Below, in pieces: positions 4,875-22,952 of a DNA stretch of 60,329 bases. A model generated the notes under the pieces. It was not told the origin of the DNA, did no database searches, and saw only the letters and a program-made list of their open reading frames with translations. A program made the position numbers and the translations under genes. Within the stretch, counting starts at the first letter, position 1. Each line of letters begins with the position of its first letter. Source of the stretch: Acidobacteriota bacterium (GTDB taxonomy: Bacteria; Acidobacteriota; Polarisedimenticolia; J045); assembly GCA_030949985.1 (NCBI GenBank), contig JAUZRX010000060.1, positions 1 through 60,329 of the forward strand, read 5' to 3'.

Positions 4875-4916
4875 ACAGATCCTGCGGCAGGAGCCGCGAT
4901 CATCTGATCTCTTGTG

Positions 4917-4928
4917 CTCTCTCTCTCT
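4917..4928 (-). repeat. (AG)6 dinucleotide tract at the 5' end of a secreted-protein gene
   Basis: The plus strand reads six CT units here, that is (AG)6 on the coding strand, beginning within codon 3 of the ATG at 4935. With six units the ATG frame stops after MNKRERAQEIR. With seven units it enters the long signal-peptide frame. Short dinucleotide tracts inside 5' coding regions are classic slipped-strand phase-variation sites. Confidence 0.75.
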
Positions 4929-4932
4929 TGTT

Positions 4933-4950
4933 CATATTGGCTCTCCCTCC
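4933..4950 (-). promoter_or_regulatory. Strong Shine-Dalgarno and ATG preceding the (AG)6 tract
   Basis: On the minus strand GGAGGGAGAG (4950-4941) is followed after 5 nt by ATG (4935-4933). This is the best translation start near the gene, yet it is out of frame with the body by one AG unit. That argues the TTG at 4874 is not the native start. Confidence 0.65.
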
Positions 4951-5085
4951 CGACTTGCAAGGCGACCGGATGCTCACAAACGCCGTCCGGGCGTCATGCG
5001 AAACAACATTGCGGGGAGTCACGCACCGTACGACAGGCGCACTCCCATGACATCTTTAGCTACTACCTGGACCCACTGGTGTCAA

Positions 5086-5181
5086 CCGGTAGCGCCACCG
5101 CCTCCCCGTCCCGGATAATGCGCGGCATGTTCAGAAAGCTGCTCGTCGCCAACCGGGGTGAGGTCGCTGTCCGCGTGGCCC
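5086..5181 (+). repeat. Direct repeat copy B: leader and 5' end of the intact biotin carboxylase gene
   Basis: This is the partner of 1420-1515, with 93 of 96 positions identical by hand count. It includes the GATAAT sequence 8 bp before the start codon and the first ~18 codons of the functional gene. Confidence 0.85.
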
Positions 5182-6503
5182 GCACCTGCCGCAAGATGTC
5201 GGTCTGTCCCGTGGCCGTGTTCAGCGAGGCCGACCGGGGGGCGCCCTGGCTCGAGGCCTTCGACGAGGCGATCTGCCTCGGACCGGCCCATCCTGCCAGG
5301 AGCTATCTCGACCAGGAGGCGATCCTCCAGGCCGCGCAGCAGGCTGACGTGCAGGCCCTGCACCCGGGCTGGGGCTTCCTCGCCGAGAACGCCCTGTTTG
5401 CCACTCGAGTGCGCCATCAGGGTCTCGCCTGGGTCGGCCCGCCTCCCCGAGCGATCCGCCTGATGGGAGACAAGGCCCTGGCCCGCCGGACCGTGGCCTC
5501 CGCCGGCCTGCCCACCATCCCCGGCTCCGAGGGCACCCTGGACGACATCGACCAGGCCCGGCGCCTGGCCGCCGAGATCGGCTATCCCGTGCTGCTCAAG
5601 GCCACTGCCGGCGGGGGCGGCAAGGGCATGCGCATCTGTCGCGACGAAAGTGAGCTGGCCCAGGGCTTCACCGAGGCCAGCCGGGAGGCCGAGGCCTCCT
5701 TCAGCAACCCGGGGCTCTACCTGGAGAAGTTCATCGAGCGCGGCCGTCACATCGAATTCCAGCTGATGGCCGATAGCTGGGGTGCGGCCGTGCACCTCGG
5801 CGAGCGAGAGTGCTCGGTCCAGCGCCGTCACCAGAAGCTCGTCGAAGAGGCCCCCAGCCCCGTACTCGACCCAGCCCTGCGCCAACACTACGGCGAGCTG
5901 GTGGTCCAGGCCGCCCTGGCCGTGGGCTACGAGGGGGCCGGAACGGTGGAGTTCCTGCGGGAGCCCGGCGGCAAGCTCTACTTCATGGAGATGAACACCC
6001 GCCTGCAGGTGGAGCACCCGGTGACCGAGATGATCTCCGGCATCGACCTGGTCGAGCACCAGCTTCGGGTGGCCGCCGGCGAGCGCCTGGCCCTGCGCCA
6101 GGAAGAGATCACCCTCGACGGCCACGCCATCGAGGCCCGAATCAACGCCGAGGACCCCTCCGACGACTTCCGGCCCTCCCCGGGCGAGATCACCCGCTTC
6201 GACTTCCCTCGGCAGGTCGACGGCGCGAGGATCCGGGTCGATACCCACGTGCTCCGGCCCTCGGAGGTGCCCCCCTTCTACGATTCCCTGGTGGCCAAGG
6301 TCATCGCCTGGGGCCCCAGCCGCCCGGCGGCCATCGCAGGCCTGAGCGCGTGCCTGGCCGGAGCCCGCATCGAGGGGGTGCCCACCACGATCCCCGCCCA
6401 CCTGAAGATCCTCGCCCACCAGGCCTTCACCTCGGGCGACTACGACACCGGCACGCTCGAGGACATCGACCTCGGCTCCCCCGCCCCGCATCCTTCCGAC
6501 TGA
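5127..6503 (+). CDS. accC: Biotin carboxylase subunit of an acyl-CoA carboxylase
   Basis: The product carboxylates biotin on the carrier protein with ATP and bicarbonate, in the cytoplasm. Its 458 residues match the family's usual ~450. The N-terminal [20 protein letters not shown] is the family signature. ATP-grasp features follow: the glycine-rich loop [12 protein letters not shown] (~155-166), [13 protein letters not shown] (~201-213), GAGTVEFL and the catalytic stretch [16 protein letters not shown] (~285-300), then the C-terminal domain ([12 protein letters not shown]). ATG 5127 is chosen over ATG 5118 because homologues begin MFRK. No clear SD is present; GATAAT at 5113-5118 could be a -10 giving a near-leaderless mRNA, which is speculative. 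It is the first gene of the carboxylase operon, 18 bp before the carboxyltransferase. A truncated second copy of its 5' end lies at 1420. Confidence 0.93.
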
Positions 6504-6521
6504 CCCCCGCGAGGACTCGTC

Positions 6522-8243
<1,722 letters not shown>

Positions 8244-8300
8244 ACGCGAAGAGTTTCAAGCTCGCGGCTCGAGCGCTTTGCTGTAAGATGCAGGTGTAGG

Positions 8301-8330
8301 CCCGACCCCCAAAAGCCCGACCCCCAAAAG
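8301..8330 (+). repeat. Two tandem copies of a 15-bp unit
   Basis: CCCGACCCCCAAAAG occurs twice head to tail in the 113-bp gap between the carboxyltransferase and the small downstream gene. It has no dyad symmetry and no obvious promoter role. Confidence 0.8.
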
Positions 8331-8356
8331 GTGTGCAATACCATACGGAGCGGCGG

Positions 8357-8557
8357 ATGAACTCACGCGTGGTCACCTTCCAGAAGTGGATGCTCGAAAA
8401 CGAGGACTTCCTCGAGTCTCTCGGGAGGCATGCAGCCCGCCGCATCGCCGACTCCATCCTGGAGAGCGGCGAGGTGGACTGGGAAGAAGTGATCGACGGC
8501 CTTTCCCAGGACATGGAGCGCGAGATGAACTGGTTCGCGCCACGCAACCAGGCCTGA
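8357..8557 (+). CDS. Small acidic protein of unknown function within the carboxylase operon
   Basis: The product is 66 residues, MNSRVVTFQKWMLENEDF onward, predicted all-helical and acidic, with no signal peptide, membrane segment or Cys pair. It is not recognised. ATG 8357 is preferred over GTG 8333 because CGGAGCGGCGG precedes it closely. The location between the carboxyltransferase and the biotin carrier gene, 23 bp before the latter, suggests an accessory subunit or assembly factor for the complex. That role is inferred from context only. Confidence 0.6.
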   Translation: MNSRVVTFQKWMLENEDFLESLGRHAARRIADSILESGEVDWEEVIDGLSQDMEREMNWFAPRNQA

Positions 8558-8580
8558 AGCCCCGGCGAGGAGCGATCCCC

Positions 8581-9153
8581 ATGGTCCGGCCCAGCCTTCC
8601 CGCGTTGCTCATCGAAGGTGATGCAGGCAAACGGCAGATTGCGGCTCCCGCACCGGGGCGGATCCGCTGGTACCGCCTCGAGGGCGAGGTGGTCACCGCC
8701 GGCAGCCGACTCGGCCTGCTCACCGAAAACGAGCGCCATTTCGACCTGGTTTTTCCCCGGGCCCGGCCGGCCCAGCTCCGGGAGGTGCTTCTGGCCGACC
8801 CCTCGACGGCCTGCGAGTACGGCCAGGTGCTGGCCGTGGCGGTGGCTCCCAGCGGCGCGGAAGCGGCGGATCCCGAAAGCCAGGACACGGACAGTTCCGC
8901 CTTCGAGGTCCGCTCCCCGACCCACGGCACATTCTATCGGCGCCCCTCCCCCGACAGTCCGCCTTACATCGAAGTGGGCACCGAACTGCAGCGGGGGGAT
9001 ACCCTGGGCCTGGTGGAAGTGATGAAGTGCTTTTCCCCGATCACCTTCGATCCCCCGGCCGGCGCGGAGCGGGCCCGGGTGGTCGAAATCCTCGCCGCCG
9101 ACGGCAGCGAGGTCCGCGCCGAGCAGCCCCTGGTGCGCATGGAATGGCTTTGA
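8581..9153 (+). CDS. Biotin carboxyl carrier protein, AccB-like
   Basis: The protein has 190 residues. The C-terminal ~80 form a biotinyl domain: VRSPTHGTFYRRPSPDSPPY (AccB-type thumb region) and the attachment motif LVEVMKCFSPI, whose Lys (~149) would carry biotin. E. coli AccB has EAMKMM at this place, so V and C are substitutions. The N-terminal ~70 residues (IAAPAPGRIRWYRLEGEVV, then GSRLGLL) look like a second, degenerate biotinyl/lipoyl half without an acceptor Lys. It serves as the swinging carrier between the biotin carboxylase and the carboxyltransferase. SD GAGGAG precedes the ATG. The gene end overlaps the next start by 10 bp. Confidence 0.85.
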   Translation: MVRPSLPALLIEGDAGKRQIAAPAPGRIRWYRLEGEVVTAGSRLGLLTENERHFDLVFPRARPAQLREVLLADPSTACEYGQVLAVAVAPSGAEAADPESQDTDSSAFEVRSPTHGTFYRRPSPDSPPYIEVGTELQRGDTLGLVEVMKCFSPITFDPPAGAERARVVEILAADGSEVRAEQPLVRMEWL

Positions 9154-10010
9154 CCCAGCCTCCACTCCTCCGCGTGCGGGACCTGCGGGTGCGGCTCGGC
9201 CGCCGGGAGATCCTGCGAGGTGTGGACCTGGAACTCCGGCCAGGGGAGCTGGTGGCTCTCGCCGGCCCCAACGGCGCGGGCAAGACCACCCTGCTGCGCG
9301 CCATCGCGGGCCTGCTGCCCCCCTTCGCGGGAGGCGTCACCCTCGCAGGCCGACCGGCAACCGCCCTCCAACGCCGGGAACTGGCCCGCCATCTGGCCTA
9401 CCTGCCCCAGGACAGCGTTTCCGCCTTCTCCCTGAGCGTGGAGCAGACGGTGTTGCTCGGCCGCTACGCCCATGCCGGCGCCCTGCGTGGCTACACCCGG
9501 GAAGACCGGCTGACCGCCGAGAGAGCCATGACCGTCTCGGACGTCGCCCACCTGCGTCACCGACTCGTGGCCACCCTCTCCGGAGGCGAGCGGCGGCGGG
9601 TCTTCCTCGCCCGGGCCATTGCCCAGGCCTCCGGCGTGCTCGTCTTCGACGAGCCCACCTCGGCCCTCGACGTGGGCCACGCCTGCTCGGTGCTCGATCT
9701 ACTGCGGGAACTGGCCGACGCGGGCAAGGCCGTGCTCTTCTCCCTCCACGATCTGGCGCTGGCCGTCCGCGGTCCCGATCGACTGCTGCTGATGGACCAG
9801 GGCGAAATCGTCGACCGCGGCGCACCGGATAAAGTGCTCACAGGCTCCCAGGCTCGCCGGGCTTTCGGCATCGCCCTGGTGGTGACCCGCGACCCTCCGG
9901 GAGTGGTCCCCGCCGGAGGACGAGGCCGCGGAGAGGTACACACCGCCGGGCGCGTCAACGGGGCGGGACATCCGACGCCGCCAGCCGAGGGACGAGCTGG
10001 CTCCGGATGA
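9144..10010 (+). CDS. FecE/BtuD-type ABC transporter ATP-binding protein, orphan
   Basis: The protein has 288 residues. Walker A is GPNGAGKTT (~42-50), the Q-loop is LAYLPQD, the signature is LSGGERRRV (~143-151), Walker B is VLVFDEP and the H-loop Ser-Leu-His-Asp is present. The closest type is the ATPase of iron-siderophore, cobalamin and haem importers (FecCD family). No permease or binding protein gene lies in the window, so the partner must be encoded elsewhere. The C-terminal ~45 residues are Gly/Arg/Pro-rich and resemble read-through rather than a domain. The 3' end overlaps the convergent histidine kinase gene by 56 bp, and the start overlaps the BCCP gene by 10 bp, which suggests coupling to the carboxylase operon. 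Confidence 0.85.
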   Translation: MALTQPPLLRVRDLRVRLGRREILRGVDLELRPGELVALAGPNGAGKTTLLRAIAGLLPPFAGGVTLAGRPATALQRRELARHLAYLPQDSVSAFSLSVEQTVLLGRYAHAGALRGYTREDRLTAERAMTVSDVAHLRHRLVATLSGGERRRVFLARAIAQASGVLVFDEPTSALDVGHACSVLDLLRELADAGKAVLFSLHDLALAVRGPDRLLLMDQGEIVDRGAPDKVLTGSQARRAFGIALVVTRDPPGVVPAGGRGRGEVHTAGRVNGAGHPTPPAEGRAGSG

Positions 10011-12105
10011 CCCGATCCAGCTCTTCTCCGGCGATGGGCTTGCACACGTAGTCGTCCATGCCGGCGTCGAGGCAACGCCGGCGGTCCTCTTCGAAAGCGT
10101 GGGCCGTCATGGCCACGATCGGCAGGCGCTGCCCTGGCTGTTCCCCGGCCCGGATGCGTCGGGTCAGCTCGATGCCGTCCATCTCGGGCATCTGCACGTC
10201 ACTGAGCAGAAGATCGAAATCGCCGGAACGCAGCGCGGCCAGCGCTTCGAAGCCGTTTTCCGCGGTGACCACCTGGTAGCCCAACTCTTCGAGGATTCTG
10301 ACCGCCACCATCCGGTTGACCGGGTTGTCCTCGGCCAGCAGGATCCGCACCTGGCCTCCGGACCGGACCGCCGGGGCGGCGTTCGGCGACGTGCGGCGCT
10401 GGGGACCTCCCACCGGCGAGAAGACCGCCCCCTCGAAGGTGCAGGCCACCGCCTGGAGGAGCCAGGAGGGCTTGACCGGCAGTGAGAGACTGTTGCCAAA
10501 GCCCATCCGGCGGAAGCTTTCGGCGTCGCCGCGGGATCCCATGGGGCGAATCAACAGCGCTGGAATCCCGGCGGGCACACCGGCGCCCACGGCATCGGCG
10601 ACCAGCGTGTGAAATTCTTCCATCGCTCCCCGCGCCACGACCACCATCAAACCGATGGACGCATCCTGCGCCTGGACAGCGGCGGCCACACCCCCGGGGT
10701 CCGCGGCCACCAGCACCCGCAGGCCGGCATCCCGGAGCTGTCGAGAAAGAACGCGGCGGCTCTCGCCGTCCCCCTCGACCAGCAGCACGCCGATCCCCTC
10801 CATCGACGGGGGCAGCAGATCGGTCAGCCGAGCATCACCCTGCTGGCAACCGAGGACCGCGGTGAACCAGAACGTCGATCCCCGCCCCGGAGTGCTTTCG
10901 ACCCCGATCTTTCCGCCCATCATTTCCACCAGGCGACGCGAAATCGCCAGTCCCAGGCCGCTGCCGCCATGACGCCGCGCCTCGCTGGCATCCACCTGGG
11001 TAAACGCGTCGAAGATGCGCTGCTGGTCCTCGAGCGAGATGCCGATGCCGGTGTCCCGGACCCGCACCTCCAGTTCCAGGCGGGACGCGTCCGTCCGGCG
11101 GCCGCCGACTTCGATGCTGACGGAACCGCGTTCGGTGAACTTGATCCCATTGTTGACTAGGTTGATCAGGATCTGGCGGAAACGACCCGCGTCTCCCACC
11201 ACCGCACGGGGGAGCGTGGGATCGATGTAGCAGGACAGGGTGAGACCCGCCTCACGCGCCCGCTGGGAGAGGATGTCCATCACCTGCTCGACGATCGGAA
11301 CCAGGTCGAAGGGATCGGAACGCAGTTCCATCCGGCCGGCCTCGATCTTGGAGTAGTCGAGAATGTCGTCGATCACGTAGGCCAGGGACCGGGCGCAGGT
11401 CCTGGTCGTCATCGCGTACTCGAGTTGCTCGGCGTCCAGCTGCGTACGCAGGAGGAGATCGGTCATGCCCATGATGCCCCCGAGGGGCGTTCGAATCTCG
11501 TGGCTGACATTGGCCAGGAAAAGCCGACGGGCCTCGTTGCTTCGGATGGCGATCTCACGGCTTTGGATCAGGTCGACGGTGGACAGGTAACGCTTGTAGG
11601 TGGCGACACCGATATAGACGCCGTAGACGATGAGCATGATCGCCGTCATCGTCGCCGACCAGGTTCCGACCCAGAACATCACGCCGACTCCGGACGCCAT
11701 CATGGGAACGCCGTAGAAGCCGATCGAGTACGGATCGAAATAGAGCGACTGGCAGGCACCGGAGATCATTCCCACCAGGACGAAGACGAGGATCGAGCGG
11801 GGCTCCGGGGCGACCGTGGCCATCGACGTGGCCAGCCCCACCGACCAGATCAGGCCCGTCCCAAGCACCAGAACCCGCGCCATCGGCAGTTTTTCGAGGG
11901 GAAAGGGGCGCGGCGCGAGCGTCATCCACAAGTAGCGGCCGGCGCTCAGAACAGCGAGGGCGACGGTCCACCACACCAGGCCCGGGGGATCCTCCCACCA
12001 GAGCAGAAGGCTCACCAGGCCCGCCACGCCGACCTGGGTCAACGTCGCCCCCCGGCTCTGATCGATCAGATCGTCGGCCAGGTGTTGAGCCACCAATCGA
12101 TGCAC
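9955..12105 (-). CDS. Membrane-bound hybrid sensor histidine kinase with two receiver domains
   Basis: The protein has 716 residues. About six N-terminal TM segments (residues ~20-185, MASE-like, no extracellular sensor domain) precede the dimerisation/phosphoacceptor motif NVSHEIRTPLGGIMGM (His ~205). The catalytic domain has the N-box ILINLVNNGIKFTE, DTGIGIS and GGSGLGLAISRRLVEMMGG. The first receiver-like domain (~455-565) has VVVARG where the phosphoacceptor Asp should be and is degenerate. The second (~585-705) is intact: LLAEDNPVNRMV, LLLSDVQMPEMDG and CKP. The start is GTG with SD GGGAGCAGGT. A membrane-integrated signal probably controls phosphorelay to the terminal receiver; no output partner is adjacent. 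Confidence 0.92.
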   Translation of the reverse strand: MHRLVAQHLADDLIDQSRGATLTQVGVAGLVSLLLWWEDPPGLVWWTVALAVLSAGRYLWMTLAPRPFPLEKLPMARVLVLGTGLIWSVGLATSMATVAPEPRSILVFVLVGMISGACQSLYFDPYSIGFYGVPMMASGVGVMFWVGTWSATMTAIMLIVYGVYIGVATYKRYLSTVDLIQSREIAIRSNEARRLFLANVSHEIRTPLGGIMGMTDLLLRTQLDAEQLEYAMTTRTCARSLAYVIDDILDYSKIEAGRMELRSDPFDLVPIVEQVMDILSQRAREAGLTLSCYIDPTLPRAVVGDAGRFRQILINLVNNGIKFTERGSVSIEVGGRRTDASRLELEVRVRDTGIGISLEDQQRIFDAFTQVDASEARRHGGSGLGLAISRRLVEMMGGKIGVESTPGRGSTFWFTAVLGCQQGDARLTDLLPPSMEGIGVLLVEGDGESRRVLSRQLRDAGLRVLVAADPGGVAAAVQAQDASIGLMVVVARGAMEEFHTLVADAVGAGVPAGIPALLIRPMGSRGDAESFRRMGFGNSLSLPVKPSWLLQAVACTFEGAVFSPVGGPQRRTSPNAAPAVRSGGQVRILLAEDNPVNRMVAVRILEELGYQVVTAENGFEALAALRSGDFDLLLSDVQMPEMDGIELTRRIRAGEQPGQRLPIVAMTAHAFEEDRRRCLDAGMDDYVCKPIAGEELDRVIRSQLVPRLAASDVPPR

Positions 12106-12909: not shown

Positions 12910-13149
12910 TCACGGAGCGGAATCGTCTTCGCCGGAGAGCAGCGCATCGACCTCCGCCGCATGCCGGCCGGTGGCCGCCTGCATGGCGCCGAGGCCCGGC
13001 AGTTCGCCGGGGCCGGCCACTTCCCGAGCCGCCTGCTCGTTCTCCTCGAGCACTGGAAGAACCTCGGCCGCGTCGCGGGCACTCAGGTAGAGCACCACCG
13101 CCAGGGCGATGAGCAGGACCAGGATGGCGATACCGCCGCCCTTTTTCAT
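12910..13149 (-). CDS. Small single-pass membrane or exported protein
   Basis: The product has 79 residues: MKKGGGIAILVLLIALAVVL is a signal anchor, followed by an Ala/Glu-rich tail (VLPVLEENEQAAREVAGPGE) of no recognised family. Its ATG overlaps the TGA of the PmbA-like gene (ATGA at 13149-13146), so translation is coupled. GGGGAAG lies just upstream. It may be a membrane partner of the neighbouring peptidase-like pair; that is inferred from position only. Confidence 0.65.
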   Translation of the reverse strand: MKKGGGIAILVLLIALAVVLYLSARDAAEVLPVLEENEQAAREVAGPGELPGLGAMQAATGRHAAEVDALLSGEDDSAP

Positions 13150-14246
13150 GGTCTTCCCCTTTCTCCCTCCAATCTGGTGTCCCTCGGGCCGATCGTCACC
13201 TGCCCCAGGCGCAGCAGCGGAATCTCCACCGGAACCCCGGCACCGTCCATCACCGCCGGTCCCCGAAAACCCTCGACGCTCTCCAGCCACCTCCCGACTC
13301 CCTCGAGGGGCAGCGGTCCCCAGCGGAAGCGAGGCTGCCCTTCCGAGTCGGCCCAGAAGCCCGCCCCGACGACGAAGGCTCCCACGGCGTGGAGGCGGGT
13401 AACCCACCAGCCTTCCGGCGAGGCCGTCGATGCCTGCGCCACCGACAGGCGCAACCGCTTCCACCCGGGCCGCGGCGGCAGCCTCCAGCTCTCCCGCACC
13501 ATCTGTCCGGGTCCCCGCGGCAGATGGACCAGCACCCCACCGGCCACCACGGATGCGGGAGCACTCCCCGGGGCGACCACCTCCACGCCGGTCGCCGCCA
13601 CCCTCTCACCGATCACACCCCCAAGCAGCCAGCGCCCGGACGCCATGCGGAGCAGATCGGCTCCGGCGAAGACGTCGAGCCAGACGGCATCCCCCGCCCG
13701 GGGTGCCCGGCCGCGGGGAAGCGACCAGCTCTTCGCCTCGCGGGCCACTACCTGCAGCCAGCCCTCCGGCCACCGGTCTTCCTCGAGGAGAACCGTTCGG
13801 GACCAGGGAGCGAATCCTCCCCGGGGAGAGCCGAGCTGCGCCCGGGCCACGACGATCTCCTGTACGCAGGGTGGACCCCCGCCACCAGTCTCCACGACCC
13901 GAGCCCGGTCCAGTTCCACCACCACCCGGGCGACGGACGCGGGCAGCGCGTCACGCAGCTCCCGCCACAAATCCGTGAGTTCTTCCCGTCGGCAGGGCGC
14001 GGGTCCATCACCCGCCTGCCGGAATGCCGGCAGAGGACGGGTGGGGTCGCCCAGGTCCCCCCTTTCGAGACCTTCACCACACTCGAAGCGCTCACCGTCG
14101 GTGAGTCCGTGAAACAAACAAGAGCTTTTCTTTCCTTTTTCTTTCAAGCCCTGATCACTGCCTGGGTCACGGCCAAGGGGCGGAACACCTTGACCAAGGC
14201 CTTTGTCTCGCCCCTCATCACGCCTCTTGTCAAAGCCTCTAGCCAT
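13146..14246 (-). CDS. PmbA-like partner protein (diverged TldD/PmbA family)
   Basis: The product is 366 residues from ATG 14246; the exact start is unsure because no SD is visible and the first ~55 residues are low-complexity and charged. The C-terminal third contains GWWVTRLHAVGAFVVGAGFW, ADSEGQPRFRWGPLPLEG and PLLRLGQVTIGP. These correspond to the end of the PmbA fold, where family members read GxFSxGxxGFxIENG ... P ... ltIaG. PmbA/TldE proteins lack the metal motif and dimerise with TldD to process small peptides. Here the immediately upstream gene carries the HExxH. The resemblance is weak and was judged by eye. The two genes are separated by 14 bp. Confidence 0.5.
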   Translation of the reverse strand: MARGFDKRRDEGRDKGLGQGVPPLGRDPGSDQGLKEKGKKSSCLFHGLTDGERFECGEGLERGDLGDPTRPLPAFRQAGDGPAPCRREELTDLWRELRDALPASVARVVVELDRARVVETGGGGPPCVQEIVVARAQLGSPRGGFAPWSRTVLLEEDRWPEGWLQVVAREAKSWSLPRGRAPRAGDAVWLDVFAGADLLRMASGRWLLGGVIGERVAATGVEVVAPGSAPASVVAGGVLVHLPRGPGQMVRESWRLPPRPGWKRLRLSVAQASTASPEGWWVTRLHAVGAFVVGAGFWADSEGQPRFRWGPLPLEGVGRWLESVEGFRGPAVMDGAGVPVEIPLLRLGQVTIGPRDTRLEGERGRP

Positions 14247-14260
14247 TGAAAACGGCGGGT

Positions 14261-15415
14261 TTATGCCCGATTTCGCAGGTAACGGCGGAGCGGCTCGAGT
14301 ACAAGCGTCGGCGCGCCGACCATGACTGGAAGCGTCAACCCTTGTCGCGAACAGGCGGCCATTTGCTGACTGTCGCGGGTGCCACCCCGGCATACTCGCG
14401 CCCTTCTCCATGCCTGTTCAGGTGTGCACATGAGCAGCACATCCTCTCCCGTCGAAGTCTTGCCGGCGAGGAGGATCTCGCCGGAGAGAGGATCGAAGCG
14501 CCCCGCGTCGATCGCCCGGATCCACAGGGCACCGTCGGCCGGAGGATCCATCCGCGGAACGCTTGGATCCCATTCGAGCCGGGTACACGAGAGCAAGGGC
14601 TGGGGGGACTGGCGCACCGACGCGCTGCGCCAGCGCCCGGGCTCCACACTGGAGGCGGAGCCATGGGCATCCCAGAGCACCGCCCGGCGAGCGGGGCAGC
14701 CGCGATCATCGACGCGGAAGCCCGCCGGCCAGGGGGCGGCGCCGGGGTCGTCCACGATACGTAAGCCAGCGGCGTTCGGCGCCCGGATGGCGGCGGACTC
14801 CATCGCCGCGTGGGCCATCTCGTGGACCCACCAACCGGCGGCCTCCGGTTCGAGAACCACGGGGCCTTCGCTCCAACCACTGGGGACCGGCGACCCGGTC
14901 ACCGGGGGCGCGGCGTCCATATCTTCGACGGCCTGGGCCAGGATGTCGGCATCGGGAGCCTGCCGGACGTCCTCGACCAGCCAGTCTCTGCGCCGCCCCC
15001 CACCATCGAGGGTGAAGAGCAGGCCCTGCTCCCAGCTCGACGCCGCGCCGGAGTCGGGACTCCACCAGCAGCGCAGCCGCCCCCAGACCCGAAAGGCCAA
15101 GCGCTCGCTGACCTTCGCGGCCTCGGCAGCCAGGGCCCGTACCGCCTCCTCCACCCGGTGGCCGCTTTCGGCCAGATCCTCTCCCACGGTGAACTCCCAT
15201 CGGGCAGCGGTCCCGGCCTGGCTCGACGCCACCTCCCGCCGCCATCCCCCATCGGCGCGCAGGCTTCCAGCCTCGACCACCGAACCCTGGCCGGCGAGCG
15301 TGGCCCGCCACTCCCAGAGGGCCAGGCCGGAACCCCCGACCCCGGACGCACCGCCCTCCACCCGGCAGCGGTGCCGAAACTCCCGTTCGAGGCGCCTGAG
15401 CATCTCCGGGTCCAT
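14261..15415 (-). CDS. TldD-like metallopeptidase, diverged
   Basis: The product has 384 residues. The key segment is GWWVHEMAHAAMES (~190-203), an HExxH zinc site where canonical TldD has HExxxH. Downstream GLRIVDDPGAAPWPAGFRVD and DDRGCPARRAVLWD match the TldD pattern 'DDP ... G ... DDEG ... L.  G', and WIRAIDAGRFDPLSGEILLA resembles the late 'GG.vdp.tG.F' element. TldD/PmbA heterodimers cleave unfolded or modified peptides in the cytoplasm; no signal peptide is present here. This is the first gene of a minus-strand group with the PmbA-like gene, a small membrane protein and a DUF302 protein. The family call is moderate because overall similarity is low. Confidence 0.55.
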   Translation of the reverse strand: MDPEMLRRLEREFRHRCRVEGGASGVGGSGLALWEWRATLAGQGSVVEAGSLRADGGWRREVASSQAGTAARWEFTVGEDLAESGHRVEEAVRALAAEAAKVSERLAFRVWGRLRCWWSPDSGAASSWEQGLLFTLDGGGRRRDWLVEDVRQAPDADILAQAVEDMDAAPPVTGSPVPSGWSEGPVVLEPEAAGWWVHEMAHAAMESAAIRAPNAAGLRIVDDPGAAPWPAGFRVDDRGCPARRAVLWDAHGSASSVEPGRWRSASVRQSPQPLLSCTRLEWDPSVPRMDPPADGALWIRAIDAGRFDPLSGEILLAGKTSTGEDVLLMCTPEQAWRRARVCRGGTRDSQQMAACSRQGLTLPVMVGAPTLVLEPLRRYLRNRA

Positions 15416-15542: not shown

Positions 15543-17612
15543 GTGAAGGTCCGAGTGCTCGTCGTCGACTTCGAACCGCGCTCGCGAGAGGCGACGGTGG
15601 GGATCCTCCGCGAACACGGCTACGACCCTGTGCCGGTGACCTGCCCGGCGGATTGGAGCCGGCGGATCCAGCAGCCCGGGCAGTTGCCGCCGATCGCCCT
15701 GATCGAACCTCTCCTGCCGGGAACCGACGGTTTCCAGGTCTGTCGGGAATTCCGGACCGCCCACGCCGGCCGCCCCTGCCTGACGCTGGTGGGTACCCGG
15801 ATCCTCTTCTCCGAGCGCTATCGCCAGTTGGCCCACCAGGCAGGGGCCGACCTTTTCTACAAGCGCCCGGATCAGAACGGGGAAGCCCTGGCGCGGATCG
15901 CCCGGTGGATCGAGGGCTCCGGCCAGGTGCGGCTGGAGGCCGAGGTCGACACGCGGGAACCGGTCGCCGTCCTGGCCGGCGCCACCGGTCGGCAGAGCGG
16001 CGCCGAGACAGCCGACGGGGAGAGCGTGTTCTCCGAGAAAGCGATCGACCAGGCGCTGCAGGGAGCGTTTCGCGCCCCCTCGGAACCCGGCCCGCTGCCC
16101 ACGCCGGCCGATCCGCCCGCAGGAGCCGGGAACCCTGCCCCCGCGGAGGAAGACCTCGACGAGGTTCTCTCCCGGGCCCTTGGAACCCCCCAGACAAGCC
16201 CCGGCGACACCCCCCCGCCGGCAGAAGACATGGACGCCGACGCCGCCCTCGACGCCCTTTTCACCGGCGATACCAAGCCCCGCCCCAAAGCACCTCTCCA
16301 GGGCATGGACCAGGGAACGGCCGAACTCCTCTCCACTCTCGAGGAACTCGAGGCCTCCGTACCCCAAAGCCCCGACGAGCCGACGTACACGGGAGAATGG
16401 GGCTGGACCGGTGGGAGCGGCCCACGGGAGGTGGAGACGTCGATTCCCCTCTCACCACCACCTCCCCCCGAAGAGGAAGCCTCGCTCGACGCCATCTTCT
16501 CGAACCTTCCCAGTCCCATCGCCGAGCCCGTCGAGCCGGTGACCACCTCCACCACGGGAATCACCGGCTCCGGCGGCGAGAAGGCCGTCCCCACCACCGG
16601 CAAGGCAAGATCCGCAGCCACGCCGCAGCCACGGCTGACGCCGCATCCCGCCTCGTCACCGCGCCGCTTGCCGCTGGCCGTCCTGCTGGCCATCGGCGCG
16701 CTGCTGGCGGTGGTCGCCCTCGGTACCTGGACGCTGCGCTCGGCGCATCAGGCCGCATCCGCCGCGGCTCCTGCCGAAGCGGATCCCGTCGCGGTGCTGC
16801 CTCCGGCACCGACTGCCGGGGACCAGCAACCCACCGCCCCGATCGGGACCCCGGCCGACCGCCCCGAAGCCCACAATACGGAACCGGCGGATCCGGTCGC
16901 CGCCGAGGCCCCCGAGCCGCCTCCCGTACGGACCGCCCCCGCATCCCCGGCCGGGGCCCGGCCGCCACGACCCGAACCCGCCCTGGCGAAGGTTCCTCCC
17001 GCGCCGGCAGCCGCACCGGCAACCCGGACGATTCCCCAAGCCGCCATTCCCCGCCGTTCGCCCGCCCCGGCTCCCGCCGCACCGGCGACGCTCCCGGTCG
17101 AGCCCCTCGAGACCGCTCCTCTCCCGGCGCCCGTGGAGGAGGCGAGCGCCCCCTTGGCGGAAGAGGCCGCCCCGGCGCTGGAGGCGATGGTCCCCGACGC
17201 CGATCCCGTGCTCACGGAACTCGCGCTGGAACCGGATCCCGGGGCCCCTGAGGAAGTTCTGACCGACTCCGAGCTGGCGGCCGAGCAGGCCCCACCACCA
17301 CGGATGGCGCCACTGATCCCGGGAATCGGCGGCGTCAGCATGCCGGAGGTGATCCCGGAGACCCGTATCGAACCGATTTACCCCGATGCCGCACGCAGGC
17401 TGGGCCTGTCGGGCAAGGTCATCCTCCAGGTCGTCATCAGGCGGGACGGCAGCGTCGGGGACATCCAGGTGCTCAGGGAACCCCCCGGCGGCCACGGCTT
17501 CGGGGAGGCCGCGAAGGTCGCCGTCAGCCAGTGGCGCTACCACCCGGCCATGCGCGTCGGGCGCCCGGTGGATGCCCAGATCACCGTGACGATCCAGTTC
17601 AACCGCAACTGA
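15543..17612 (+). CDS. Receiver domain - TM - TonB C-terminal domain fusion, copy 1
   Basis: The product has 689 residues. Residues ~1-120 form a response-regulator receiver fold: VRVLVVDFEPRSR, then IALIEPLLPGTDGFQ with Glu55 in the phosphoacceptor position, and GADLFYKRP retaining the conserved Lys. A long Pro/Ala/Glu-rich linker contains GMDQGTAELLSTLEELE (~253-269). One TM segment (LPLAVLLAIGALLAVVALG, ~375-395) precedes a second Pro/Ala-rich spacer. A TonB C-terminal domain follows (~600-689): IEPIYPDAARRLGLSGKVIL, VVIRRDGSVGDIQV and AVSQWRYHPAM. The topology is cytoplasmic receiver, periplasmic TonB. GTG 15543 is chosen because the promoter leaves no leader for ATG 15498 and GAGGAG lies ~8 nt before it. 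Pairing TonB with a receiver is unusual; the role is probably regulated energy transduction or envelope tethering. Confidence 0.88.
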   Translation: MKVRVLVVDFEPRSREATVGILREHGYDPVPVTCPADWSRRIQQPGQLPPIALIEPLLPGTDGFQVCREFRTAHAGRPCLTLVGTRILFSERYRQLAHQAGADLFYKRPDQNGEALARIARWIEGSGQVRLEAEVDTREPVAVLAGATGRQSGAETADGESVFSEKAIDQALQGAFRAPSEPGPLPTPADPPAGAGNPAPAEEDLDEVLSRALGTPQTSPGDTPPPAEDMDADAALDALFTGDTKPRPKAPLQGMDQGTAELLSTLEELEASVPQSPDEPTYTGEWGWTGGSGPREVETSIPLSPPPPPEEEASLDAIFSNLPSPIAEPVEPVTTSTTGITGSGGEKAVPTTGKARSAATPQPRLTPHPASSPRRLPLAVLLAIGALLAVVALGTWTLRSAHQAASAAAPAEADPVAVLPPAPTAGDQQPTAPIGTPADRPEAHNTEPADPVAAEAPEPPPVRTAPASPAGARPPRPEPALAKVPPAPAAAPATRTIPQAAIPRRSPAPAPAAPATLPVEPLETAPLPAPVEEASAPLAEEAAPALEAMVPDADPVLTELALEPDPGAPEEVLTDSELAAEQAPPPRMAPLIPGIGGVSMPEVIPETRIEPIYPDAARRLGLSGKVILQVVIRRDGSVGDIQVLREPPGGHGFGEAAKVAVSQWRYHPAMRVGRPVDAQITVTIQFNRN

Positions 17613-17621
17613 TCCCGCTGA

Positions 17622-17650
17622 TTGAAGGGCCCTCGACGGGGACCTATGTT
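17622..17650 (+). promoter_or_regulatory. Sigma70-like promoter of the second receiver-TonB gene
   Basis: TTGAAG (17622-17627) and TATGTT (17645-17650) are spaced by 17 bp. The same -10 hexamer and a CC just before it occur at the first copy's promoter, so the pair was probably duplicated with its control region. The start codon at 17680 is ~23 nt past the expected transcription start. Confidence 0.55.
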
Positions 17651-17679
17651 TGCCGGGTGGGATCCGGGGGCCCGAGTAG

Positions 17680-20061
17680 ATGACCGTGAGACAACCTGTT
17701 CTCGTCGTTGACTTTGACCAGCGCTCACTGGCGGCCGCCCGCAAGCGGCTCGAGGACGCGGGGTTCGCCTGTCGCTGCGCCGGGAGCGCACCCGAGCTCG
17801 ATGCCCAGCTCCAGGCCGGCACGCCCCCCGTAGTCGTTCTCGATCCCATGCTCCCGGGGAAGGACGGCTTCAAGCTCTGCCGGGAACTCAAGCGCAAGCA
17901 GAATGGCGCACCGGTAGTGATCATCTTCTCCCGCATCTTCAAGGGCCAGCGCTACCGCGCCATGGCCCGGGATGCCGGGGCCGACCTGTTCCTCGAGCGC
18001 CCCCGGGACGATCACCGCCTGGTCGAGGAGATCCGGCAACGCCTCGAAGCCCACCAGGAAGACCCGTCCCTTCTCGACCCTCGTACCGCCGCCCGTGTCC
18101 CCGGGTCTTCCACCGATGCCGACCCCGCCCTGGCCGACATCACGGACGACGAGATCGACGGCGCCCTCCAGCGCGCCCTGGGTTTCGCTTTGCCGGACGA
18201 CGCCGCCTCCTCACCCGATCCTGCTCCGGCCACGCCCACCGCGGACGCCGTCGCCGAAGTCGCGGCGGCGGCGGAATCCATCCCACCCGCCACAGGGCCG
18301 GTGGAGCAGGCAGAGGGGAGAGTCGACGCAGCCGACCTGTGGGCCAGCCTGGACCGCCTGGAGCTGGAAGTCGCTGAAGAGCTGGCGCCGACCCGGCCTC
18401 AACTGACGGCCTCGGTGATGTCGACACCGTCCAAGCCCGCCGTCGCGCCCCCCGGCCCGGCCCGCACCCTCGACTCACCGATGGCCTTTGGCCCGGCGGA
18501 GGAGCTCGAGTCCGCGGCGCCCCCGACCGTCACACCGGAGCTGGTGGATCTGCCCTCCACCGGCGTTCCTGACGGTCCCATCGCCGACTCCCAGGCCATC
18601 GAATCCGTCGTGGACTCGGTGATCGCCTTCGCGCCCACCGCCGAGACCGGGCCGGTTGCGCCCGGCGACGACGACGCCAACGAGGCACCACCGGCGGAAG
18701 TCGACGGCTTCGAAGCGGTCGGACAGGCCCCCGAACCCACCGGTGCGACCAGCGCCGAACCCGGTGCCGTGGACGCGGCGGCGGATGACGCCCCGCCGCC
18801 ATCCGTTCCCGAGCCGCTCCGGGGCATGGACGCCGGGACCGCCGAGTTGCTCTCCACCCTCGAAGAACTGGAAAGCAGCCTGCCCCCCGACTACGAAGCC
18901 GGGATGACGGGCGAGAGCGCCTGGACCGGCACGGGGAGCCTTGGCGGCCTGTCCGGCACCGCGGGCGAACCGGAACGAGCCCCCTTGCCATCCCGCGAGG
19001 AAGAGCCTTCGCTCGAGGATCTGCTCGACCAGCTCGCGGCCGATGGCCCCGACAGGCCCGCGCCCGCCGCGGCCGAGGCGCCGGACACCGAAGAGCCCGC
19101 CAGGGCGGCCGGGGCCTCACCGACGGGAGCGATGATGGAGGATCCGCCCTCGCGGCTCGCTTCGGGAGTCATGCTGTTGTCGTTCGCCATCGGCATCGTG
19201 CTGACCGGAGCCGTAGGTGGCTTCTTCCTCTCGCGCCGCCCGGCCCCCCCGGTCCAGCGTGCGCTGATGCCCATCACCCGGACCCACACCGGCGACGGCC
19301 GGGTCCCCATGATGAAAAGCCCGGCCGAAGCCCCGCCCCGAACGCAGGCCATGCGCCGTGTTCCCGAGTCGGTGGAAGAGCCGCCCCCCGTCGCCCGGCC
19401 GGTCGCCCCGCCGCCGACGCCCCGGCCGAGGGAGGCGGCCGCCGTCGGCCCGGTCGCCCCCGAGAAAAAGATCGAGCTTGCCCGGGCCAGGCCGGCCCCT
19501 CCCCGGCCACCGCAGCCGGCGGTGGCTCGCGCCGAAACGCCGAAACCGGCGGCGCCTCCCGTGGCGACATCGCCGCCTCCGCCGCTCCCCCAGGCCCCGC
19601 GCCGGGATCCCGTCCCCGCCGCGAAGACGGCCGATGCCCGACAGCCGCCCCCTCAGCCTCGCCCGGCCGCATCGACCACCCCACCAGGGGACCGCCCCCA
19701 GCCCTCGGCCCGCCTCGAGACCCCGCCCGAGCCACCGGCGGCGCCGGACCCGCTGGAGCCTCCCGCCCCGCTGGTCAGGCTCGGGGACCTGGACTATCCC
19801 CTGCGGCTGCTCGAAGCGCCCAAGCCCGAGCTGACGCCGGAGGCCCGGGAAGCCGAGGTCCAGGGCCGGGTCTTTCTCAGCGTGCTGGTGGATCCCAACG
19901 GCAACGTCAAGGATGCCAGGATCATGATCGAACCCGGCTACGGCCTGGGCCGAGCCGCGGCAGAAGCGGTGAAGCACTGGCGCTACAGCCCGCCGCGCAA
20001 CAAGGGCCGCCGGGCCCGTGTATGGAAGACGGAAGTCGTCGAATTCCAGCTTCCCCAGTAA
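17680..20061 (+). CDS. Receiver domain - TM - TonB C-terminal domain fusion, copy 2
   Basis: The product has 793 residues and is a paralogue of the gene just upstream. The receiver (~1-125) reads LVVDFDQRSLAAARKRL, then VVVLDPMLPGKDGFK with Asp55 kept, but GADLFLERP has Glu where the conserved Lys should be. The linker again carries GMDAGTAELLSTLEELE (~381-397), then an acidic stretch. The TM segment is MLLSFAIGIVLTGAVGGFFL (~495-515). A ~180-residue Pro-rich spacer, suited to crossing the periplasm, leads to the TonB C-terminal domain (~700-793): LTPEAREAEVQGRVFLSVLV, DPNGNVKDARI and AVKHWRYSP. No ExbB/ExbD genes are in the window. It has its own promoter, and a hairpin at 20085 ends the unit. 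Confidence 0.88.
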   Translation: MTVRQPVLVVDFDQRSLAAARKRLEDAGFACRCAGSAPELDAQLQAGTPPVVVLDPMLPGKDGFKLCRELKRKQNGAPVVIIFSRIFKGQRYRAMARDAGADLFLERPRDDHRLVEEIRQRLEAHQEDPSLLDPRTAARVPGSSTDADPALADITDDEIDGALQRALGFALPDDAASSPDPAPATPTADAVAEVAAAAESIPPATGPVEQAEGRVDAADLWASLDRLELEVAEELAPTRPQLTASVMSTPSKPAVAPPGPARTLDSPMAFGPAEELESAAPPTVTPELVDLPSTGVPDGPIADSQAIESVVDSVIAFAPTAETGPVAPGDDDANEAPPAEVDGFEAVGQAPEPTGATSAEPGAVDAAADDAPPPSVPEPLRGMDAGTAELLSTLEELESSLPPDYEAGMTGESAWTGTGSLGGLSGTAGEPERAPLPSREEEPSLEDLLDQLAADGPDRPAPAAAEAPDTEEPARAAGASPTGAMMEDPPSRLASGVMLLSFAIGIVLTGAVGGFFLSRRPAPPVQRALMPITRTHTGDGRVPMMKSPAEAPPRTQAMRRVPESVEEPPPVARPVAPPPTPRPREAAAVGPVAPEKKIELARARPAPPRPPQPAVARAETPKPAAPPVATSPPPPLPQAPRRDPVPAAKTADARQPPPQPRPAASTTPPGDRPQPSARLETPPEPPAAPDPLEPPAPLVRLGDLDYPLRLLEAPKPELTPEAREAEVQGRVFLSVLVDPNGNVKDARIMIEPGYGLGRAAAEAVKHWRYSPPRNKGRRARVWKTEVVEFQLPQ

Positions 20062-20658: not shown

Positions 20659-21534
20659 ATGGCCTGGTTCCAGAAGGCGAAGAAGCCCAGGGCGCGCTCG
20701 GAGGGGCGGCGCTCCCACATCCCCGAGGGGCTGTGGATCAAGTGCCAGGGCTGCGGCGAGGTGATCTACCGCAAGGAAGTGATCCGCAGGGCCTGGATCT
20801 GCCCCAAGTGCTCCTACCATTTCCACCTTTCCGCCACCCAGCGCCTCGAAGCCCTGCTCGACGACGGCCGCTACGACGCCTTCGACGCGAACCTGGCCTC
20901 CATCGACCCCCTGAAGTTCCGCGACAAGAAAGCCTATCGCGATCGCCTGCGGGACTACCAGGCCCGCACCGGTCTCGGGGACGCGGTGATCTGCGCCGAG
21001 GCCAGGTTGGGCGGGCACCCGATCGTGATCTGCGCGATGGAATACGCCTTCATGGGCGGCTCCATGGGCAGCGTGGTGGGCGAGAAGATTACCCGCGCCG
21101 CCGAGCGGGCCCTCGCCGCGCGGGTACCGCTGATCGTCATCTCCACTTCCGGCGGCGCCCGCATGCAGGAGGGCGCGCTGTCGCTGATGCAAATGGCGAA
21201 GATCTCCGCGGCCCTGGCTCGACTGCACGAGGCGGGCCTACCCTTCATCTCGATCCTCGCCGATCCCACCACCGGCGGTGTCACGGCCTCGTACGCCATG
21301 CTCGGCGACGTGAACATCGCCGAGCCCGGCGCGCTGATCGGCTTTGCCGGACCCCGGGTGATCGAGCAGACGATCCACCAGAAGCTGCCCCCCGGTTTCC
21401 AGCGCGCGGAGTTCTTGCTCGAGCATGGAATGGTCGACATGGTCGTCGATCGTGGTTCCCTGAGAAAGACCCTGATCGAGGTGCTCGAGCTGCTGTGGTT
21501 CGGGCCCCGCTACGACGAAGAGCCCGTCGCCTGA
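20659..21534 (+). CDS. accD: Acetyl-CoA carboxylase carboxyltransferase subunit beta
   Basis: The protein has 291 residues. The N-terminal zinc ribbon has two CxxC pairs (CQGC ~30, CPKC ~49). The crotonase-fold body follows with MEYAFMGGSMGSVVGEKI, STSGGARMQEGALSLMQMAK and DPTTGGVTASYAMLGDVNIA, all hallmark AccD segments. It transfers CO2 from carboxybiotin to acetyl-CoA as a heterotetramer with AccA, the first committed step of fatty-acid synthesis. accA is not in the window. GGTGGAG lies 5 nt before the ATG. It is 53 bp upstream of folC, the accD-folC order common in bacteria. Confidence 0.96.
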   Translation: MAWFQKAKKPRARSEGRRSHIPEGLWIKCQGCGEVIYRKEVIRRAWICPKCSYHFHLSATQRLEALLDDGRYDAFDANLASIDPLKFRDKKAYRDRLRDYQARTGLGDAVICAEARLGGHPIVICAMEYAFMGGSMGSVVGEKITRAAERALAARVPLIVISTSGGARMQEGALSLMQMAKISAALARLHEAGLPFISILADPTTGGVTASYAMLGDVNIAEPGALIGFAGPRVIEQTIHQKLPPGFQRAEFLLEHGMVDMVVDRGSLRKTLIEVLELLWFGPRYDEEPVA

Positions 21535-21587: not shown

Positions 21588-22952
21588 ATGGGTAGCCCTC
21601 CACTCGATCCCCTCTTCCAGTGGCTTTTCTCTCTCAGCGGTCCCTCGCTCAAGTGGGATATCGAAACCGCCCGGGAGTTCTGCGCCTGGCTGGGACACCC
21701 CCAACGGGCCTTTCCCTCGGTGCACGTGGCGGGAACCAACGGCAAGGGGTCGGTGGCGGCGATGATCCACGCCATGGCCGGCGCTTCGGGGCTGCGCGCG
21801 GGACTCCTGACCAGCCCACACCTGGTACGCCCCGAGGAACGCATTCGCGTCGGCGAGGACGAGATCAGCCCGCGAGCCTTCGCCGAACGGATCGAAGCCC
21901 TGCGCGACCAGGCCGCCCGGGCCCTCGACGCGGGCAAGCTGCCGCGACACCCCTCGTTTTTCGAAATGATCTGCGCCGCGGCTTTCGTCGAGTTCGCCCG
22001 GGAGCGGGTGCCCCTGGCGGTACTCGAAACCGGACTCGGAGGACGGCTCGATGCCACCAACGTGGTCTACCCGGTGGTCTCGGTGATCACCACCATCGCT
22101 CTCGACCACGTCAAGTCCCTGGGCGGGTCGATCACCGCGATCGCCCGGGAGAAGGCCGGAATCATCAAACCGGGGATTCCCGTACTCGCCGGCTGGATCG
22201 ACCCGGAGGCGGAAGCCGTCGTCAGGGCCGCGGCCCGGCGGCAGGGCGCGCCCTTCCACGCCGCGCGGGAGGAAATCGTCGTCACCCCCACGGCCGGAGG
22301 CGACGGCTTCGACGTGCAGACTCCCGAGCAGCGTTACCAGGGCCTGACCTGCGCCCTGGCGGGGCCGCACCAGCAGCGCAACGCCGCCCTGGCCCTGCGG
22401 GCCGCCGAACTGGCCCGGCAGCGGGGCGTCGCCTTCTCCACGCGGGGGTTGAGCGCAGGACTGGCCCGAGTGCGCTGGCCGGGCCGCCTGGAGAGCCTCG
22501 GGCAGGCGCCCACCTTCCTGCTCGACGCGGCCCACAACCGGGAAGGGATCGAGGCGTTGGCCGCCTGCCTGGAAGAACGGCCGCGACCGGCGCGACGGGT
22601 GCTGATCTTCGGCCTGACCGCGGGCCGCCCCCCCGCGGAGATCTTCGCTCCGCTGGCCGGACGGGTCGACGCGGTGGTCCTCACCCGACCCCGCAGCCCC
22701 AAGGCGGTCGCCACGGGGGAGATCGCCGCCGCCATCGCCCCGGCAAGCCCGGCGCTGTGGCAGCGGGACGAGGTGGGCGAAGCCATCGCCCTGGCCCGGC
22801 GGGAAGCCGGCCCGGCAGGGGAAGTGCTGGTCACCGGCTCGCTCTACCTGGTCGGCGATGTACGCCGGGAATTGCTGGACCTCGAAGGACCGTGGCGGCG
22901 GCCCGCCGAGAAGGTGCCGCCCGTCGAGAGCGCAAACCACCATGTTTCCTGA
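21588..22952 (+). CDS. folC: Folylpolyglutamate synthase / dihydrofolate synthase
   Basis: The protein has 454 residues and belongs to the Mur ligase family. The P-loop GTNGKGSVAAM is at ~47-57, TSPHLVRPEERIRV at ~76-89, LETGLGGRLDATNVV (the FolC-specific strand) at ~146-160, and the carbamylated-Lys region TTIALDHVKSLG at ~169-180. A C-terminal domain follows with FLLDAAHNREGIEAL. It adds glutamate to folates and converts dihydropteroate to dihydrofolate, ATP-dependently, in the cytoplasm. The gene end overlaps trmB by 11 bp. Confidence 0.95.
   Translation: MGSPPLDPLFQWLFSLSGPSLKWDIETAREFCAWLGHPQRAFPSVHVAGTNGKGSVAAMIHAMAGASGLRAGLLTSPHLVRPEERIRVGEDEISPRAFAERIEALRDQAARALDAGKLPRHPSFFEMICAAAFVEFARERVPLAVLETGLGGRLDATNVVYPVVSVITTIALDHVKSLGGSITAIAREKAGIIKPGIPVLAGWIDPEAEAVVRAAARRQGAPFHAAREEIVVTPTAGGDGFDVQTPEQRYQGLTCALAGPHQQRNAALALRAAELARQRGVAFSTRGLSAGLARVRWPGRLESLGQAPTFLLDAAHNREGIEALAACLEERPRPARRVLIFGLTAGRPPAEIFAPLAGRVDAVVLTRPRSPKAVATGEIAAAIAPASPALWQRDEVGEAIALARREAGPAGEVLVTGSLYLVGDVRRELLDLEGPWRRPAEKVPPVESANHHVS

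Follow-up and report, generated by a model that had tools for sequence, protein, structure and literature searches.

The window analyzed here, a 60,329-nucleotide stretch of a contig from an uncultured Acidobacteriota bacterium, contains two tandem paralogous genes on the forward strand that are separated by 67 bp (P0001 and P0002, hereafter RR-TonB1 and RR-TonB2; Table 1). Combining Pfam, family profiles and AlphaFold2, we established that each protein consists of a receiver fold, a disordered linker, one predicted transmembrane (TM) helix (aa 376–397 in RR-TonB1 and aa 499–520 in RR-TonB2), followed by a second linker in the periplasm and finally a TonB C-terminal domain (CTD). This bears out the architecture that a preliminary description of the locus had proposed for the pair. 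Codon-position GC is coding-like in both genes (0.77/0.58/0.82 for RR-TonB1 and 0.78/0.58/0.83 for RR-TonB2), and the recurrence of the same architecture in orthologues from about ten genera of the family excludes a chance origin. The N-terminal regions of the two paralogues align across 195 residues (E 5e-21). Their linkers are otherwise unalike but share the motif GMDxGTAELLSTLEELExS[VL]P, which recurs in six more family proteins and may well form a helix that binds a partner.

Table 1. Features of the RR-TonB locus and its surroundings, in window coordinates.
Feature	Position	Strand	Remarks
BtuD-like ABC ATPase	9027..10010	+	Best NCBIfam model is a corrinoid ABC transporter ATPase, E 3.7e-75, below the equivalog cut-off
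Second gene of the divergent pair	13146..14411	-	Conserved in the family; no Pfam hit
Divergent neighbour	14261..15415	-	Diverged relative of the TldD/PmbA-like gene that relatives have here, 27% identity to L050:7442-8674; no Pfam hit
RR-TonB1 (P0001)	15543..17612	+	689 aa, GTG start; pseudo-receiver, linker, TM, Pro-rich linker, TonB_C
RR-TonB1 pseudo-receiver	15543..15917	+	
RR-TonB1 conserved linker motif	16302..16364	+	GMDQGTAELLSTLEELEASVP; common to the paralogue and orthologues
RR-TonB1 single TM helix	16668..16733	+	TM prediction; His absent
RR-TonB1 TonB C-terminal domain	17370..17603	+	YP motif kept
RR-TonB2 (P0002)	17680..20061	+	793 aa; architecture as RR-TonB1
RR-TonB2 receiver domain	17680..18054	+	
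RR-TonB2 conserved linker motif	18823..18885	+	GMDAGTAELLSTLEELESSLP
RR-TonB2 single TM helix	19174..19239	+	TM prediction; His absent
RR-TonB2 TonB C-terminal domain	19825..20049	+	Pfam, AlphaFold2 and PDB matches
accD (acetyl-CoA carboxylase carboxyltransferase beta)	20659..21534	+	Syntenic marker
folC	21588..22952	+	Syntenic marker

Most of the close orthologues lie beside accD-folC-trmB-dprA and are flanked on their other side by a divergently oriented gene that is also conserved; those of RR-TonB2 keep their place upstream of accD-folC. In one relative (G008) the tandem pair appears to be kept, split across two contigs. Through its relatives, the divergent pair at 13146–15415 is kin to a TldD/PmbA-like pair that, in other families, adjoins homologues of amgK, murU and lnt. 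Also conserved beside the RR-TonB locus are a biotin carboxylase, a carboxyltransferase and a biotin/lipoyl-attachment protein (window 4914–9153), which probably make up a propionyl-CoA carboxylase that would feed a B12-dependent pathway. A hybrid histidine kinase is encoded at 9955–12105 of the window, and in one genome only, a Reg_prop hybrid histidine kinase (L043:10204-14289) is separated by 34 bp from an RR-TonB gene of type 1. We rejected two-component gating by the window's kinase as a general mechanism, as that kinase is not conserved beside the RR-TonB gene.

The N-terminal domains keep the receiver fold and lose key residues of its active site. RR-TonB2 passes the Pfam cut-off for Response_reg (E 8.8e-14), and an AlphaFold2 model of its residues 1–135 adopts the (beta-alpha)5 receiver fold (pLDDT 86), with receiver domains such as those of YycF and PhoB as best PDB matches. 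The receiver of RR-TonB1 is degenerate, scoring 16.7 bits against a Pfam cut-off of 30.2, and matches the family profile at 3e-44, a profile that itself contains RR-TonB1. Phosphorylation of a receiver calls on two acidic Mg-binding residues, an acceptor Asp and a catalytic Lys, and neither paralogue carries the full set: the catalytic positions read D, F, E, R in RR-TonB1 (Glu instead of the phospho-acceptor Asp, with Phe and Arg in place of the second acidic residue and Lys, respectively) and D, F, D, R in RR-TonB2, which retains the acceptor Asp and has the same Phe and Arg substitutions. Of 52 TonB-bearing relatives, 48 have another residue in place of the acceptor Asp (29 E, 10 S and 9 R) and all 52 have Y, F, T or N in place of the second acidic residue, while control receivers from the same genome set were intact at the active-site positions (10 of 10). 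Pseudo-receivers commonly carry Glu where the acceptor Asp would be and Arg where Lys would be (PMC12632262). The RR-TonB receivers are thus pseudo-receivers, retaining the fold without key catalytic residues, and are unlikely to work as normal receivers. In the receiver tree deep support is modest and RR-TonB1 sits on a long branch, and we therefore draw no date for the duplication.

Two further groups of receivers deserve mention. Nine kinase-bearing members from families f14 and f39 (L221, L222, L224-L230) have Arg at the acceptor Asp, and in an equal number of members (nine) the conserved Thr is replaced by Cys and the Lys by Asp, a joint change unlike that of the Glu form. Free-standing pseudo-receivers of 150–250 aa (L100, L102, L108, L113, L052, L101, L103, L177) carry the same Asp-to-Glu change and adjoin accD; their genomes often encode a separate RR-TonB, and in family f4 they also adjoin a PduO-type adenosyltransferase gene.

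At the opposite end of the proteins, TonB_C is recognized by Pfam in both RR-TonB1 (E 7.7e-19) and RR-TonB2 (E 1.5e-13, above cut-off). AlphaFold2 models the last 95 residues of RR-TonB2 as a TonB-CTD (pLDDT 94), and this model matches FoxA-bound TonB, the BtuB:TonB complex and other TonB-CTDs in the PDB. Two of the checks that the preliminary description had suggested favor it on the folds: RR-TonB2 has a receiver at its N-terminus and a TonB-CTD at its C-terminus by structure prediction, and Response_reg and TonB_C both score above cut-off in this one protein and occur together in many Acidobacteriota families. The membrane helix reads differently. In E. coli TonB, Ser16 and His20 contact ExbB (PMC12215075), and the corresponding SHLS-type histidine in the TM core is present in 0 of 52 family members, a sequence marker that gives no support to the "energy transducer" that the pair had been suggested to be. 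Most short TonBs in the same genomes do have the TM histidine; exceptions such as TonB_C81 and L194 lie beside exbB. Some working TonBs, of the Vibrio TonB2 type, also lack it. Given such His-less proteins beside exbB, the histidine test only makes the energizing reading less probable.

As had been noted for the window, ExbB/ExbD genes do not accompany the pair: searches with ExbB profiles, in which positive controls were detected, found no ExbB homologue either in the window or in those surroundings of the relatives' copies that were read, and we dropped an operon with ExbB/ExbD as a candidate. Several ExbB homologues are encoded elsewhere in the window's genome, so that action in trans is possible. 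In the genome of one relative, several TonB_C repeats are clustered within and across adjacent open reading frames (G023:C10:169503-173052).

The genomic setting of the relatives points to corrinoid (B12) uptake. An RR-TonB gene precedes btu corrinoid-uptake genes in 15 genomes of seven families, with a cobalamin riboswitch at 13 of the loci. In six genomes (G020, G023, G025, G027, G029 and G015) it is followed directly by btuF, btuC and btuD, and in most of these a B12/siderophore-type TonB-dependent receptor follows as well. Eight genomes of f14 and f39 carry a kinase-bearing form before btuF; at these loci btuC, btuD or a receptor was recognized in varying combinations with a short reference set. 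The riboswitch (RF00174) lies between the RR-TonB stop codon and btuF at 9 of the 13 loci; the others have it near the receptor or upstream of it. Being upstream of the riboswitch at those nine loci, the RR-TonB gene itself is probably outside B12 repression. In f11 the operon adjoins a PduO-type adenosyltransferase gene. Of the 41 genomes of the class, 39 have BtuC, including some with no RR-TonB found, which indicates that RR-TonB is accessory to uptake and not a core or essential component. In one genome (G012) a TonB-less version, with receiver and TM helix, occupies the same btu position. At L049:1803-2897 a pseudo-receiver with a TM helix and no TonB domain lies immediately upstream of btuFCD, reflecting either a natural loss or an assembly fault.

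Class-wide and phylum-wide searches recovered receiver-TM-TonB_C proteins from many Acidobacteriota families. In nine of these (f14, f15, f16, f24, f27, f31, f39, f43 and f44) a Ser/Thr kinase is inserted between the receiver and the TM helix, with Pfam Pkinase E-values of 1e-41 to 1e-45 in four examples and intact HRD and DFG motifs in 22 of 22 kinase-bearing relatives; the window's own pair is kinase-less. Proteins that join receiver, Ser/Thr kinase, TM helix and TonB_C in one polypeptide (L174, L175, L176, L185 and L215-L233) are found partly beside accD-folC and partly before btuF.

In the window's genome, as in its family, B12 genes lie scattered. The window itself has only the BtuD-like ATPase, which sits 5.5 kb from the pair, is conserved near RR-TonB2 in the family and is also found near an RR-TonB gene in G002, G008 and G010; the remaining B12 genes lie elsewhere. 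PduO, BtuF and BtuC genes stand together on contig C28, with no BtuD recognized beside them, and the sole cobalamin riboswitch found in this genome stands upstream of a C19 cluster whose genes include one for a B12-type receptor. Given this scatter, the link of RR-TonB1 and RR-TonB2 to B12 runs through the family and through remnant synteny.

Comparison with known systems sets these proteins apart. With E. coli-type TonB (TonB_C, PF03544) they share a single TM helix, a Pro-rich periplasmic arm and a TonB-CTD, but they add a cytoplasmic pseudo-receiver and linker of ~375–500 aa and lack both the SHLS-type TM histidine and an exbB found nearby. Like atypical or pseudo-receivers such as FrzS (PMC12632262), they replace key catalytic residues within a receiver fold; a difference is that theirs is fused across the membrane to a TonB-CTD, and the main text of a review of pseudo-receivers mentions neither TonB nor Acidobacteria (PMC12632262). 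The kinase-bearing relatives resemble transmembrane Hanks Ser/Thr kinases of the PknB type in joining a cytoplasmic kinase, one TM helix and an extracytoplasmic domain, but they carry TonB_C in place of PASTA on the outside and a pseudo-receiver at the N-terminus. GltJ/AgmX of Myxococcus likewise combines a cytoplasmic regulatory part, a TM helix and a TonB-like C-terminus (PMC8262864), and the pair had been given a possible motility link on this likeness. We rejected that reading: the AgmX/PglI C-terminal domain model reaches 20 bits, short of its cut-off of 40, no motility genes or Glt machinery were identified among the neighbours scanned, and the relatives sit in B12-uptake operons instead. 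As in BtuB-BtuFCD uptake under a cobalamin riboswitch, those operons carry btuF, btuC, btuD, a B12-type receptor and RF00174, yet they are preceded by a pseudo-receiver(-kinase)-TonB gene, for which the open-access papers found offer no counterpart. Nor did we find in the open-access literature a description of any receiver(-kinase)-TonB fusion, inside a B12 operon or otherwise. The single modules are known; what appears to be new is their combination and the genomic setting in which it occurs.

Most likely, the RR-TonB proteins form a family that spans the phylum Acidobacteriota and whose members cross the inner membrane once and are tied to corrinoid uptake. We put the chance that its members are transmembrane docking or sensor proteins linked to this uptake, with the TonB-like domain as reader, at about even. 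According to this model, the TonB-CTD is carried on a Pro-rich periplasmic arm of ~200 residues and probably docks on an outer-membrane corrinoid receptor by way of its TonB box, and the pseudo-receiver, locked by changes such as Asp-to-Glu, probably has a binding partner in the cytoplasm and offers no phosphorylation switch. In the kinase form, an intact Ser/Thr kinase between pseudo-receiver and TM helix would make the protein resemble a receptor kinase with a TonB-CTD as its outside domain, and the kinase-less pair of the window would most likely tether or report on a corrinoid receptor and not energize it. We favor docking or sensing because a signal-gated energizer would need two active parts, both of them missing here, and because the kinase-bearing relatives have the topology of receptor kinases. 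Counting against it, the scatter of B12 genes in the window's own family makes the linkage indirect for this pair, BtuC also occurs in genomes with no RR-TonB found, the accD-folC surroundings are shared about as widely as the btu operon is, some working TonBs lack the TM histidine too, and RR-TonB2 retains its acceptor Asp. More tentatively, the TonB-CTD might read the state of the corrinoid transporter and signal across the inner membrane to the Ser/Thr kinase, the pseudo-receiver or both, the window's pair being kinase-less derivatives.

The main rival to docking or sensing is a dedicated energizer: a true TonB that serves the corrinoid receptor with power from ExbB-ExbD made elsewhere, the pseudo-receiver merely localizing or scaffolding it. 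That the operon partner is a TonB-dependent receptor, that the CTD model matches the BtuB:TonB complex, that the genome encodes several ExbB homologues and that the periplasmic arm is long enough for the outer membrane all speak for such a protein; we nevertheless consider it a minority possibility, as the ExbB-contacting histidine is missing in 52 of 52 members (PMC12215075), no ExbB lies near any copy, the kinase form resembles a receptor kinase and ordinary TonBs are present in the same genomes.

The accD neighbourhood provides a second lead, in which RR-TonB, linked to this neighbourhood and not to B12, would act as a sensor or tether in the envelope and couple the state of the envelope to its synthesis or to that of fatty acids. 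Here accD-folC follows the RR-TonB gene in f1, f31, f44, f46 and f15 and lies beside the free-standing pseudo-receivers in f4, f9 and f49, but this is a common old gene order that may be passive synteny, and in f14, f39, f12, f5, f2 and G020 it is the btu operon that adjoins, with accD unseen in the stretch read; we judge this account unlikely. Most improbable of all is the mechanism put forward in the preliminary description, in which a two-component signal phosphorylates the receiver and so gates energy transduction by TonB. Its receiver fold is real, RR-TonB2 holds the phospho-acceptor Asp and hybrid histidine kinases lie nearby in some genomes, the window's and L043 among them. Against it stand the loss of the second acidic residue in 52 of 52 relatives and the replacement of the acceptor in 48 of them, Glu in RR-TonB1 and the Phe and Arg substitutions in RR-TonB2, the missing TM histidine and neighbouring kinases that are not conserved. 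The other option of that description, control by a protein partner through the receiver, may still hold.

If docking or sensing holds, a TonB-CTD would have a use as sensor or tether, in place of force transmission or in addition to it, and a nutrient transporter of the outer membrane would be wired directly to signaling by a cytoplasmic kinase or pseudo-receiver. Should the family include receptors that read their transporter, bacteria of this phylum would sense transporter occupancy directly. The activation mechanisms of bacterial pseudo-receivers were called a mystery by a 2025 review (PMC12632262), and corrinoid uptake would then provide a concrete process in which to ask how pseudo-receivers work.
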